DNA from: an uncultured Verrucomicrobia subdivision 3 bacterium | Lineage (GTDB): Bacteria > Verrucomicrobiota > Verrucomicrobiia > Limisphaerales > UBA11358 | Direction of reading: 5' to 3' | NCBI GenBank assembly: GCA_903835255.1 | Contig: CAILMI010000039.1 | Span: forward strand, 1 to 32,277 | Length of the DNA: 32,277 nt | Shown here: positions 4,552 to 8,891 of the stretch, in pieces | Layout: the number at the start of each line of letters is the position of its first letter | Position numbering within the stretch: position 1 is the first letter of the stretch | Position numbers and translations under genes: made by a program | The notes under the pieces: generated by a model | Told to the model about the DNA's origin: nothing | The model's database searches: none | Seen by the model: the letters and a program-made list of their open reading frames with translations, nothing else

Positions 4552-5535
4552 TCAGCCGCCCACGGCCGCGCGGGCCTCAGCGGCGAGGGGGGTGCTCAAA
4601 TAGCGTTCGCCCGTCGAGCACGCGATCGTGACAATGGTCTTACCCTTGTTTTCCGGGCGATTGGCGACCTCGAGAGCGGCGACGACATTTGCGCCGGTGG
4701 AAATGCCGACCAGGATGCCCTCCTCCTTCGCCAGACGCCGCGCCATGGCAAAGGCGTCGTCGTTGGAAACCTGGACGCACTCGAGAATCTGGGGACGGCC
4801 CGCGCTGTCTTTCAAATGGAGGTTCTGCGGGACAAAGCCGGCGCCGGTGCCTTGGATTTTATGCGGACCGGGCTTGACGGGCTGCCCGGCGATCGTCTGC
4901 GAGATGACGGGTGAATCTTTGGGCTCCACCGCGATGGCTTGGAACGAGGGCTTCTTCGGCTTGATCACCTCGGTGACGCCGGTGAGAGTACCGCCGGTGC
5001 CCACTGCAGAAACGAAAATATCCACCTGGCCGTCGGTGTCCTCCCAGATTTCCACCGCGGTGGTTTTGGAGTGGATGGCTGGGTTCGCCGGATTATTGAA
5101 CTGCTGGGGAATCCAGGAGTTGGGCGTTTCCTGGGCCAGGGCTTCGGCACGGGCAATGGCGCCCTTCATGCCTTCCGCGCCCGGTGTCAGCACCAGCTTG
5201 GCGCCCAGCATCGCCAGCAGGGTGCGGCGTTCGACCGACATGGTTTCGGGCATCGTGAGAATCAGGGAATACCCCTTGGCTGCTGCCACGAAGGCAAGAG
5301 CGATGCCGGTGTTGCCGCTGGTGGGCTCAATAATGACCGTGTCCTTTTTGAGAACGCCGCGCTTCTCGGCGTCCTCAATCATCGCCATGCCGATGCGGTC
5401 CTTGACGCTGCCGAGTGGGTTAAAAAACTCACACTTAAGAAGAATCGTCGCACCGGCGCCGGCGGTGACCTTGTTCAGTTTGACCAGCGGCGTGCGGCCG
5501 ACCGTTTCGATGATGTTATTATAGATGCGCCCCAT
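4552..5535 (-). CDS. cysK: Cysteine synthase A (O-acetylserine sulfhydrylase)
   Basis: PLP enzyme that makes L-cysteine from O-acetylserine and sulfide. The start is placed at the ATG at 5535, giving 327 aa that begin [18 protein letters not shown] as the family does. An upstream TTG at 5601 would add 22 residues with no family likeness. The PLP lysine sits in NPLGSVKDR (K45), the substrate loop is PTSGNTGI (about 71-78), the PLP-phosphate loop is [12 protein letters not shown], and the late GTGAGFVP segment is typical of CysK. No cysE is adjacent. An A/T-rich tract instead of a Shine-Dalgarno sequence precedes the start, and an 18-bp palindrome lies about 125 bp upstream. Confidence 0.95.
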
Positions 5536-6070
5536 ATTTTTTGCGGTTCGGTTGTTTACTAAAGCGGGGTTAAAGTTGGGCGGAAGAGCGCACTCGGGCA
5601 AGTATTTTTATCTGAAAATACAAAAACAAACTTCCCACCTCCACCTCCAACACCCCCTGAAACACCGACCGGTGTTTGTTCATAGGACGAATTCAAGCGG
5701 CGGGGATTGAATGTCCCATGTTTTCCAGTTCCTCAGACAACAACCCCTGCCGGACCTTTCGGTCAGACAGGTAAAAACGCGTCTCGCCACCCGGACAACG
5801 AATGATTAGGCACAGCTTATTCACCGCGTGACACCCCACCGAACCGCAGTCGCCGCCCCACTGAACCCTTTAAATCCGGCTTGTTTCCGCTTTGTGTCCA
5901 AAAATTATCCACCCGCCACCCAATTCCGCTTTTATCCCGGTGAATAACTTTTGGCGATTTTTCGTTCGAAGAAAATGACCGCGGAAATTGCTTCGGAAGG
6001 GCCGCCTTCCCTCCCATGCTGGAACACCTCTTGGGCAGTTGGGGCGGCAAAACAAGAGATGGCGGTGTGA
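5536..6070. other. Non-coding region upstream of cysK
   Basis: About 530 bp without a supported gene. Short minus-strand frames at 5817-6115 have low-complexity, non-protein-like composition and are not called. The region probably holds the cysK promoter: an A/T-rich stretch lies at about 5605-5632. It also contains the inverted repeat listed at 5660-5677. Nothing else is recognised. Confidence 0.5.
5660..5677. promoter_or_regulatory. 18-bp palindrome, candidate operator upstream of cysK
   Basis: The sequence AAACACCGACCGGTGTTT has two perfect 8-bp arms around a 2-base centre. It lies about 125 bp upstream of the cysK ATG, and only cysK is oriented away from it. Its size and symmetry suit a dimeric repressor or activator site, but the binding protein cannot be named. 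With a 2-base loop it is unlikely to act as an RNA hairpin terminator, and it has no T-run. Confidence 0.4.
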
Positions 6071-6100
6071 AAATAAAAAAGGCCGTCCTTGCGGACGGCC
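6071..6100 (-). terminator. Intrinsic terminator of the 37-aa basic protein gene
   Basis: On the minus strand GGCCGTCC and GGACGGCC form a perfect 8-bp stem with a 4-base loop, followed by TTTTTTATTT. It starts 18 bp after the stop codon of the small gene at 6119-6232. Confidence 0.9.
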
Positions 6101-6118
6101 CTGATTGAATCTCAAACC

Positions 6119-6232
6119 TTACTTCTTCGATTTCGCTTTAGAAGCCTTTTTCGTTTTCACGATGGCTTTTTTGCGTTTGATGTAGGCCTTGCGGCGTTTC
6201 TTGTGTTCGGCTTTGTTGAGTTGTTTGCCCAT
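6119..6232 (-). CDS. Small, very basic protein (37 aa) of unknown function
   Basis: An ATG at 6232 opens a 37-codon frame ending in TAA at 6119-6121. The product begins MGKQLNKAEHKKRRKAY and is about half Lys/Arg (17 Lys and 3 Arg by hand count), with no hydrophobic stretch and no cysteine. A strong terminator follows immediately, and the gene diverges from the lipoprotein gene with 45 bp between the two starts, so it looks like an independent transcription unit. The composition resembles small ribosomal or nucleic-acid-binding proteins such as bL36 or Thx, but I recognise no motif of a named family. A similar short basic protein is, as far as I recall, annotated as hypothetical in other Verrucomicrobia; this needs a search. 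Confidence 0.7.
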   Translation of the reverse strand: MGKQLNKAEHKKRRKAYIKRKKAIVKTKKASKAKSKK

Positions 6233-6277
6233 AAGTGTCTTTACTTTAATCGCGTGTTGCGGTTTTGTGGACGCACT

Positions 6278-6805
6278 ATGAAAGTTTATGGGCGGCGATT
6301 CAACATCTTTTTAGCATTGGCGGCGGCGGCGGTCCTGGCAGGCGGCTGCCAGACGGACAAAAAAAAAGGCGATATCAGCGCCATGCGCGTCCATTTGCAG
6401 GCCAATAAGAACACCGTGGGATCCACCGTGCCCGTCACCCTGCTCCGCTCCAATCCGGTGAGCGTGACCATTGCGCATGACCCGATTTTGACGGAGGCCA
6501 ATCTGGTGACGGCTCAGGTCATTGAAACGCCCGGGGGATTCGCTATTGAAGTCCAGTTTGATCAAACCTCTTCCCTGATGCTCGAACAATATTCCTCCGC
6601 CAATCCCGGGCTGCACTTCGTCATCTTCGGCCAATGGGGCGAAACCGCCGCCGACGGCCGCTGGCTGGCCGCTCCGCTGATCACCCGTCGCATTCCCAAC
6701 GGAAAACTGGCGTTCACGCCGGACATCACCCGCGACCAATCCGACCGTTTCGTTTCCGGACTGAACAATGTCGCTAAAAAAGTGAAGAAGGGCATTTTCA
6801 AATGA
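6278..6805 (+). CDS. Hypothetical lipoprotein
   Basis: 175 aa from the ATG at 6278. The frame is open further upstream, but that part is antisense to the small basic gene and lacks protein character. The N-terminus is a lipoprotein signal: positive MKVYGRR, a hydrophobic alanine-rich core, and lipobox LAGGC with the acylated cysteine at residue 24. The mature part is mostly beta-like and has no motif I recognise. Its last codon and stop overlap the start of the M23 peptidase (ATGA), so the two are translationally coupled. This suggests an envelope role alongside the peptidase, such as an anchor or partner, but that is inference. Confidence 0.8.
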   Translation: MKVYGRRFNIFLALAAAAVLAGGCQTDKKKGDISAMRVHLQANKNTVGSTVPVTLLRSNPVSVTIAHDPILTEANLVTAQVIETPGGFAIEVQFDQTSSLMLEQYSSANPGLHFVIFGQWGETAADGRWLAAPLITRRIPNGKLAFTPDITRDQSDRFVSGLNNVAKKVKKGIFK

Positions 6806-7827
6806 AGCGGGGAGCCATGTATCGCGCCGGGGCCGCCGCGGCCGCCCTCTTTTTTTTCGTGATGCGCCTGTGTGCTCAGGCCCCGTTCCAGTTTCCCACC
6901 GCCAATCATTCGCTTTACCAGGTCGGGGATGAACTGAAGTTTTTCGCCCCCACCGCTCCGGACAAGCCGTGGACCAGCGGAAGCTTCGGCTGCGAGCGGA
7001 ACGGAGGATGGCGGATGCACGAGGGGCTGGACATCCTCCACCGGCAGACGGACCGGCGCGGGGATCCGACCGATCCGGTGCTGGCCACCGCGGACGGGAC
7101 CGTGGTCTATTTCAGCCGGAAGCCCTCGCTCTCCAACTACGGCAACTACATCATTCTCCGTCATAACATTGAGGGCCTGGAAATTTATTCGCTCTATGCG
7201 CACCTGAGCGAGGTCCGGGCGGATTTGAAAATCGGCGCGCCGGTGAAGGCCGGCGAGGGGATTGGCACGATGGGGCGCACGTCCAACGCCGAAGGCATTG
7301 CCCGGGAACGCGCGCACCTCCATTTCGAGCTCAACGTCCTCGCAAATGAGAATTTTGCAGCCTGGTTCAAGAAGAAAAATCCCGGCGAGCGCAACGACCA
7401 CGAGGGCTGGAACGGCCAAAACTTCTTCGGCCTGGATCCGCGGGAGATCCTGATTCGCGAACGCAATCCGGTCAAAAAATTTAGCCTGCTGGAATTCGTG
7501 CGCGGCCAGACGGAGCTTTACCGGGTGCAGGTGCGGGCGGTGAACTTTCCCTATCTGAAACGCTACCGGGGGCTGATCCTGAAAAACCCCGTGGCGGAAA
7601 AGCAGGGGGTGGCCGGATATGAGCTGGTGTTGAATTACAACGGCGTTCCCTTTGCCCTGCTGCCGCGCGCCGCCTCGGAAATGAAGGGCGCTGCCAAAGT
7701 CCAGCTGCTCTCGGTCAATGAAAAAGAATATCGCGCCAACCCCTGCCGCAAACTGGTCGCCCAGCGCGGGTCCCGCTGGCAGCTGACCGAGGCCGGCCTG
7801 CGCGAACTGGATCTGCTGACCTACTGA
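6802..7827 (+). CDS. Secreted M23-family metallopeptidase (peptidoglycan endopeptidase-like)
   Basis: 341 aa. A signal peptide is visible (hydrophobic run about residues 10-24, probable cut after LCAQA). The peptidase M23/LytM domain lies at about 70-180, with zinc ligands H73 and D77 in HEGLD, a supporting histidine at H134 (YAHL), and H172/H174 in the HLHFEL motif. Such enzymes cut peptide cross-links in peptidoglycan, and all metal and catalytic residues of an active enzyme seem present. The C-terminal 150 residues have no clear domain. The start codon overlaps the stop of the preceding lipoprotein gene by ATGA, so the two probably act in the same envelope process. Confidence 0.88.
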   Translation: MKRGAMYRAGAAAAALFFFVMRLCAQAPFQFPTANHSLYQVGDELKFFAPTAPDKPWTSGSFGCERNGGWRMHEGLDILHRQTDRRGDPTDPVLATADGTVVYFSRKPSLSNYGNYIILRHNIEGLEIYSLYAHLSEVRADLKIGAPVKAGEGIGTMGRTSNAEGIARERAHLHFELNVLANENFAAWFKKKNPGERNDHEGWNGQNFFGLDPREILIRERNPVKKFSLLEFVRGQTELYRVQVRAVNFPYLKRYRGLILKNPVAEKQGVAGYELVLNYNGVPFALLPRAASEMKGAAKVQLLSVNEKEYRANPCRKLVAQRGSRWQLTEAGLRELDLLTY

Positions 7828-7863: not shown

Positions 7864-7904
7864 TCAGACCGTCTCTCGCAAACGATTTCATGAACATGAC
7901 CGGC

Positions 7905-8098
7905 CTAAACCCGAACTCCGGAAGAGGAGTTTTCGCCCGCGTGGCAGGGTTAGCGCGCTGCGCCGTCCTCGCCCGCGGTCAGCGCGCGTCAGGAAGGGTG
8001 ACGGAAGGGACGTCCGCAAAAGTTCCTTCCGCGCCGGATACGGCGCGGGGTCATCGCTGCGCGATGCCCCTGCCCGCTTCGGCGTTCGGCTTAAAACG
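7905..8098. repeat. Multi-hairpin interspersed repeat, copy B (MITE-like)
   Basis: Second copy of the repeat at 11-210. The ends pair: CCGAACTCCGGAAG (7911-7924) against CTTCGGCGTTCGG (8077-8089), with one mismatch and one bulge. Internal hairpins are GCGCGCTG (7953-7960) with CAGCGCGC (7980-7987), CGGAAGG (8002-8008) with CCTTCCG (8025-8031), GCGCCG/CGGCGC with loop GATA (8031-8046), and GGGG-T-CATCGC with GCGATGCCCC (8047-8070). Several stems differ in sequence from copy A yet still pair, so structure seems to matter. It sits immediately before the start codon of the prepilin-like gene, and it is open in that gene's frame back to an ATG at 7890. Confidence 0.7.
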
Positions 8099-8111
8099 TA
8101 GCTCTCCCGAA

Positions 8112-8891
8112 ATGGCGGGCCGCCGTCATACCGGCTTCACGCTGATCGAGCTGCTCGTCGTGATTGCCATCATCGCCATTCTCGCCGCCCTGCTGCTCCC
8201 GGCGCTGAATCGGGCCAAGCAGCGAGCTTATATGACTGCCTGCCTGAACAACCTCAAACAGCTGCAGCTTTGCTGGCTGATGTATGCCCAGGACAACGAG
8301 GAGGTGATCCCCCCCAACAACTATGTGTATCAAGTCACTCTGGGCAGCACCAATAACCCCACCCTGGGCGAGGATGAAATGACCTGGTGCCGGGGATTGG
8401 CACCCCTGGAAACGAATGAAATCAGCGAGGCCACCTCGCTGCTCTTCCCCTACAATCGCAGCGCGGGGATCTACCATTGCCCGTCGGACCGCTCGACCGT
8501 GGCGGGGGCTCCGCAGATGCTCCGCAAGCGCAGCTACAACATGAGCAACAGCGCCAACTGCGCCACGGACAGCCACTTCAGGAAAACCTCGGAGATCCGG
8601 GTTCCCACCGGCCTTTTCATCTTCATCGACACGAACGAAAACGACATTTGGGATTCCACATTCGGGGTCATCCCCGCCGACTACCGCTACTGGTCGGACT
8701 TCTGGCTGGACATCCCGGCCGATCGCCATCTGAGGGGAGGCAACTTCACCTTCGCGGATGGCCATGTGGAACACTGGAAATGGCGGGCGCCCAAGGGCGA
8801 TCTGTCGCTCGGACAGCCCGCCTACAGCGCGGAGGATTTACAGGACTTGCGCCGCTTGCAGCAGTGCATCAAGGGCGCAGGGGGCAATTGA
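8112..8891 (+). CDS. Prepilin-like protein with N-terminal methylation motif and H-X9-DG domain (DUF1559-type)
   Basis: 259 aa from the ATG at 8112. Seven residues later comes the type IV prepilin signal [18 protein letters not shown], so a prepilin peptidase would cut after the glycine, and the hydrophobic helix continues to [11 protein letters not shown]. Near the C-terminus the H-X9-DG motif is complete (the histidine of RHLRG, nine residues, then DG in FADGH). Proteins of this kind are abundant in Planctomycetes and Verrucomicrobia and resemble type II secretion pseudopilins; their role is poorly known. ATGs at 7890 and 7896 are in frame and would add about 74 residues encoded by repeat copy B. 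I prefer 8112 because prepilin leaders are usually short. Confidence 0.85.

Follow-up and report, generated by a model that had tools for sequence, protein, structure and literature searches.

The window analyzed here is the whole 32,277-nucleotide stretch from an uncultured Verrucomicrobia subdivision 3 bacterium. The small gene considered in this study and the features around it are the following:

6119..6232 (-): gene of the small basic protein, 37 codons plus stop (open reading frame list, conservation, permuted-profile controls, purifying selection)
6079..6102 (-): intrinsic terminator hairpin with a T-run, 16 bp 3' of the stop codon (folding and terminator scan)
6239..6244 (-): GTAAAG motif, candidate weak ribosome-binding or promoter element, 6 nt 5' of the start (present in 52 of 147 leaders)
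6251..6261 (-): weak lead, a short CGC-loop-GCG inverted repeat within the leader (p 0.075 for the window's own leader)
6278..6805 (+): divergent neighbor, a lipoprotein-like gene (lipobox seen by eye; match to SecDF_P1_head sub-threshold only)

The small gene is read as an ATG frame at positions 6232-6122 of the minus strand, with the stop codon at 6121-6119, and encodes the protein MGKQLNKAEHKKRRKAYIKRKKAIVKTKKASKAKSKK (37 aa). The original prediction of a tiny, strongly basic protein gene is borne out by its 37 codons, composition and conservation; however, the earlier value of about 54% Lys/Arg has to be lowered, as the count gives 18 of 37 residues, or 49% (15 Lys and 3 Arg). The gene indeed diverges from its neighbor, the ATG of the lipoprotein-like gene at 6278 (+) being 45 bp from its start. 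On the plus strand, the lipoprotein-like gene and an M23 peptidase gene occupy positions 6278-7827 with overlapping stop and start. Near the window's lineage this pair is often retained beside the small gene. Positions 7890-8891 (+) encode a protein whose N-terminus carries a methylation (pseudopilin) motif, matched by Pfam N_methyl.

The strong terminator ascribed to the gene is present as a hairpin at 6102-6079 (-) with a 10-pair stem, a 4-base loop, and a T-run, although at 16 rather than 18 bp from the stop codon. The folding energy of the segment 6066-6125 is -22.1 kcal/mol, and that of its shuffles averages -10.4 (z -4.3; one of 200 shuffles was equally good). The number of terminator-like sites in the region 5500-6900, three against a shuffle mean of 2.6, is itself at chance level, and it is its length that distinguishes the terminator of the small gene from the other sites of the scan. 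No sigma-70-like promoter was found in the scan of the same region. By the criterion of our own script, 82 of 148 related loci have a terminator-like site no more than 75 nt past the stop, versus 3 of 740 shuffles.

The GTAAAG motif was found in 52 of 147 leaders, which are non-redundant but related (shuffle mean 0.84, maximum 4), and in 41 of these 52 it is located 5 or 6 bases ahead of the start codon. The strings AAGGAG, AGGAG or GGAGG occur in 15 of the 147 leaders (shuffle mean 2.7), and no leader has both GTAAAG and such a Shine-Dalgarno-like string. The conservation of GTAAAG in alignment A6 arises by selection, since its 56 leaders were chosen for this motif or a variant of it, and the usable count is that of 52 in 147. 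The motif may be a weak pairing site for the 16S tail, or the -10 element of a leaderless mRNA. When 51 leaders chosen for GTAAAG were folded singly, 16 were better than shuffles at p<0.05; RNAalifold, applied to 32 aligned leaders out of the 56 of the GTAAAG type, gave no consensus pair. The mean folding z-score of the leaders is disregarded, as the underlying energies are skewed in distribution. The inverted repeat just 5' of GTAAAG could be an operator or an autoregulatory element.

The small gene has a wide distribution. Of 40 genomes close to that of the window, which is counted among them, 38 contain matches at E<=1; taken individually, the weakest of these are non-significant. A profile of 24 members matched 170 of 236 genomes of the class at E<=0.01, and a broader profile matched 173 of 288 genomes of the phylum at the same threshold. 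With divergent members added, the iterated profile matched 225 of the 288 phylum genomes at E<=0.05 and 217 at E<=0.01; at most 45 of the 225 positive genomes could have contributed rows to it. Exactly one match was found in 218 of the 225. The same alignment with permuted columns, made from the 43 gap-free rows out of 45, matched only 4 of these 288 genomes at E<=0.05, and a permuted version of an earlier profile matched 2 of 145. A chance open reading frame is rejected by this conservation together with the column-permuted controls, and the 37-aa Lys-rich frame is a true protein gene, representative of a basic micro-protein gene that is mostly single-copy and widespread in Verrucomicrobiota. 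Thus the suspicion that such a short gene is easily missed proved well founded: it is real by conservation and has neither an NCBIfam match nor a significant Pfam match. No match was obtained in 63 phylum genomes. Some of these, from families f37 and f42 (in the latter, two genomes of 0.9 Mb), are near-complete, and hence the protein appears to be lost or too diverged in some lineages.

A scan of genome contigs with a pattern for the first ten residues produced 373 pattern matches, 122 of which were confirmed. Among the best 80 of the 122 confirmed loci, most titles name Verrucomicrobia (subdivision 3, Limisphaerales, and others), in addition to Opitutae, Victivallis, and Lentisphaerae; the genera named there belong to Verrucomicrobiota or Lentisphaerae. 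The exceptions among these 80 are three loci titled only 'bacterium' (L043, L044, and L049) and one titled Omnitrophota (L055), and no clear member outside the phylum was seen among the best 80 of 122 loci of this single scan. Locus L055, labeled Candidatus Omnitrophota, has the succession lipoprotein, M23, small gene, cysK, and rho, which is the gene order of the window's lineage, and is probably a mislabeled or misbinned Verrucomicrobiota contig. Viral copies were also considered and rejected, none of 87 pattern matches in viral contigs being confirmed.

The genomic neighborhoods were surveyed at 150 non-redundant loci. Near the window's lineage, the divergent lipoprotein gene accompanies the small gene at 34 loci and the M23 peptidase gene at 56; the former is a frequent companion there, separate from the small gene. 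Close same-strand neighbors number 87 and fall into 56 clusters. Within 180 nt downstream on the same strand, a YacP/NYN gene was found at 11 loci (confirmed by Pfam for three), cysK at six, lpxA at four (named by eye), and rimO at three, and within the same distance upstream leuS was found at two loci and the EF-Ts gene at one. The EF-Ts neighbor exceeds the Pfam cut-off; the rimO and leuS labels come from the N-terminal 260 residues of a single member each and denote best matches that stay under the full-length cut-off. Translation genes (leuS, EF-Ts, rimO, and YacP/NYN) are neighbors in some lineages and unrelated genes in others, and since the neighborhoods are so varied, gene context gives weak support apart from YacP/NYN, with many of its 11 loci coming from related lineages. 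The synteny comparison suggested by the original prediction thus yielded varied neighbors, with distant members devoid of the lipoprotein neighbor, and from the different neighbors in different lineages it follows that the small gene moves as its own unit.

Another open reading frame, TTG-initiated and extending over 6089-6805 of the plus strand, traverses the small gene on the opposite strand, codon-aligned with it, and several relatives likewise have long open antisense frames. This would be expected if what is conserved were an N-terminally extended lipoprotein encoded antisense to the small gene, or an RNA element, and not the peptide. However, changes at the first, second, and third codon positions of the small gene amount to 7626, 5466, and 17632 in core pairs; its third positions, which change most, are the first positions of the plus-strand frame, so that selection acts on the small gene. 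Moreover, some of the distant members, where the lipoprotein is missing, have Shine-Dalgarno sequences, and the window contains no Rfam match at the gathering score. This explanation can hardly be credited. The TTG frame as an N-terminal extension of the lipoprotein was rejected on the codon-position counts and synteny, and an RNA element on the Rfam result.

The ratio of nonsynonymous to synonymous changes, also suggested for comparison in relatives, is in line with purifying selection. For 148 distinct coding cores of 27 codons, the median dN/dS is 0.157 over 668 pairs with at least 70% protein identity and usable dS (98.5% are below 0.5, and none is at or above 1), the pairs being mutually non-independent and the identity limit lowering the ratio to some degree. 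Between the window gene and its nearest relative, the 27-codon core differs by six synonymous codons and no others. Absence of amino-acid conservation in relatives, the outcome by which the gene was to be dismissed, was looked for, and what was found is a peptide kept phylum-wide under purifying selection.

The conserved part of the protein is the core M[GS]xQxNKxxKRxRRxxYxKRKK, followed by a variable tail. Residues M1, Q4, N6, K7, R13, and R20 are invariant in 24 rows of relatives that were fetched without the motif. The same residues are invariant in the 52-row set (alignment A2), where Q4, N6, and K7 are so partly by selection, as a part of this set was fetched or read by the N-terminal motif. 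In the most divergent set, three residues (Q4, K7, and R20) are still invariant and four others (K10, R13, R14, and Y17) reach 90%; N6 is kept outside the most divergent members. An AlphaFold model based on 35 aligned sequences predicts, at fair confidence, one long helix at residues 7-36 (mean pLDDT 88.6, pTM 0.48).

Over the 150 loci, members of at most 45 aa were found at 127 loci and members of at least 60 aa at 17, the longest having 156 residues. Reading by the motif with a length limit gave no member at four loci (L041, L090, L108, and L110), which were retained by profile rereading. Several long members, such as those of L077, L105, L107, and L151, have Ala/Lys/Pro-rich, histone H1-like C-terminal tails; L152, with a member of 90 aa, and L153 are also among the loci with members of at least 60 aa.

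None of the family libraries and solved structures searched contains a match to the family. None of the NCBIfam families matched the 24 and 45 members tried; Pfam gave nothing significant for the same members, with scattered matches only, at E 0.025 or worse. Profile searches of PDB chains gave no significant match, the best being CCDC124 at E 0.06 and, in an earlier search, a helix of S15 at E 1.2; no PDB match is to be expected if the structure of a Verrucomicrobiota ribosome is still unsolved. Six N-terminal heptamers of the family were found in no paper of the full-text literature searched, and topic searches of titles and abstract beginnings gave no description of such a small-protein family. 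The protein belongs to a new family, of a generally known kind, with wide occurrence in Verrucomicrobiota.

Composition, the helix prediction, the near-single copy, and the analogy to bS22 make binding to RNA or to the ribosome plausible. According to the Borrelia ribosome paper, bS22 is an unannotated protein with 61% Lys/Arg that was recognized from ribosome cryo-EM density and missed by routine tryptic mass spectrometry; it occupies a pocket formed by the 16S helices h2, h27, h44, and h45 and touches H68 of 23S (PMC10618245). The same source attributes the discovery of the small ribosomal proteins bS22 and bL38 to solving of the ribosome rather than to annotation (PMC10618245), and two small ribosomal proteins are likewise reported in a paper on Mycobacterium smegmatis (PMC5876184).

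As judged from the sequence, the small protein most likely binds ribosomal RNA, and we are somewhat inclined to regard it as an accessory protein that is ribosome-bound and lineage-specific. We infer that its partner is RNA, that it is located at the ribosome, and that it may affect translation. The protein would consist of an extended M-G-K-Q N-terminus and one long Lys/Arg-rich helix and would lie in an rRNA groove, as bS22 does, as a lineage-specific ribosomal or ribosome-associated protein. The protein bTHX, too, lies in an rRNA groove. In such a position the small protein could steady rRNA helices or a subunit contact, performing a job of the bS22 kind at another site. The gene is near-single-copy and lacks a fixed operon, and the protein is conserved from its first Met onward, has conserved uncharged residues among the charged ones, and by prediction forms a helix after an extended N-terminus; this is the pattern of small rRNA-binding proteins. 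In addition, traits of the ribosomal-protein type are present, namely a single copy (218 of 225 positive genomes), wide occurrence (225 of 288 genomes, 63 being without a match), and purifying selection. A more specific proposal, for which the chances seem slightly short of even, is that of an undescribed Verrucomicrobiota-specific ribosomal protein, a helical micro-protein located in an rRNA pocket, additional to bS22, in most of the phylum.

The main rival to the ribosome-bound accessory protein is a DNA- or nucleoid-binding peptide of the histone H1 type or similar to AlgP, whose core helix and longer tails would neutralize and compact DNA. It is suggested by the high Lys content and by the members of at least 60 aa at 17 of 150 loci, several of them with the H1-like, Ala/Lys/Pro-rich tails described above. 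However, members at 127 of the 150 loci have at most 45 aa, no histone-like Pfam match was obtained, and the N-terminal core is kept (Q4, K7, R20, and mostly N6 and Y17). A specific RNA pocket would account better than charge alone for the invariant or near-invariant Q4, N6 (outside the most divergent members), K7, R13, R14, Y17, and R20, and the DNA-binding role is considered unlikely.

A free RNA-binding helper, that is, an RNA chaperone or an assembly or hibernation factor with transient ribosome contact, would be consistent with the same sequence evidence as the ribosome-bound protein. The YacP/NYN neighbor at 11 loci and the weak profile similarity to the helical segment of CCDC124 (E 0.06) point in this direction as well. 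CCDC124 is a eukaryotic ribosome-binding protein and the human counterpart of yeast Lso2. The latter is reported to be a conserved ribosome-bound protein needed for translational recovery (PMC6135351). At the same time, the CCDC124 match is non-significant and restricted to the charged helix, and no stress- or hibernation-specific neighbor was recognized in the neighborhoods surveyed. A helper of this type appears rather improbable, even more so than the DNA-binding peptide.

The small gene is a sequence-defined ribosomal-protein candidate for a whole phylum, ahead of a ribosome structure. The gene also exposes a gap in family models, as NCBIfam recognizes neither the small-protein family nor the bS22-like gene of the same genome.

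Several known systems can be compared with the small protein. CCDC124 resembles it in having a charged helix, with a weak alignment over 22 positions, but the E-values of 0.06 and 0.24 are non-significant and the chains have 73 and 223 residues. Histone H1-like and AlgP-type proteins are bacterial Lys-Ala-rich proteins, similar to some members in the Ala/Lys-rich tails; in contrast, the window protein and most members are short, and the conserved part is the N-terminal core. Membership in the histone H1-like class is not supported, a Lys/Ala/Pro-rich repeat tail not being a conserved feature of the family. The bS21 identity (PF01165) was rejected, since all 59 of 59 genomes have bS21 as a gene of its own, located at G000:C55:74078-74227 in the window's genome.

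The protein bTHX has an MGK start and is basic and lineage-restricted, all of which, as well as its shortness, is shared by the small protein. It differs in that no NCBIfam family matches any member of the small-protein family, and the bTHX model TIGR04560 itself matched 0 of 59 Verrucomicrobiota genomes and, among 14 control genomes, Thermus only; on these grounds bTHX was rejected, with the reservation that this is a 26-position model and such short models can miss divergent members, as the COX24 case described below illustrates.

The closest parallel is bS22 (AURKAIP1/COX24-like; mS38; analogous to eL41), a helical protein of about 30 residues with an MG start in clade members and Lys/Arg making up about half or more, present in one copy in nearly all genomes and readily left unannotated. 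The Pfam model COX24_C (PF08213) matched 24 of 59 genomes, and the 20 matches inspected are proteins of the type MG[SN]xKKxRRxKMxKHKRRKR. For the 24 and 45 members of the small-protein family that were tried, COX24_C does not appear among the Pfam matches. A clade profile built from 12 bS22-like sequences matches solved bS22/mS38 chains and was found in 282 of 288 phylum genomes, the window's own included, against the 24 of 59 reached by the Pfam model. The bS22/mS38-like gene of this genome, G000:C2:15751-15837 (+), encodes 33 aa within locus L211 (G000:C2:14251-17337) and is followed by a terminator-like hairpin seen by eye.

The small protein could in principle be a fast-evolved bS22 itself (AURKAIP1/mS38-like), given the shared length class, MG start, and Lys/Arg richness, and hhalign does align 11-12 residues of the two. 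However, the hhalign probability is only 8.2% and 3.5%, the latter against the 12 bS22-like sequences, and a separate bS22-like gene exists in nearly all of the phylum genomes, this one among them. This identity is very improbable, and the small gene was rejected as the bS22 gene of the genome. Its conserved residues are also other than those of bS22, without significant profile similarity. The bS22-like gene nevertheless resembles the small gene: the two belong to one size class, share the MG start, and are alike in composition and stand-alone arrangement. Thus, as follows from the separate bS22-like gene and the unlike profiles, the genome carries a pair of small basic genes similar in style, of which one is recognizably bS22-like and the other new.
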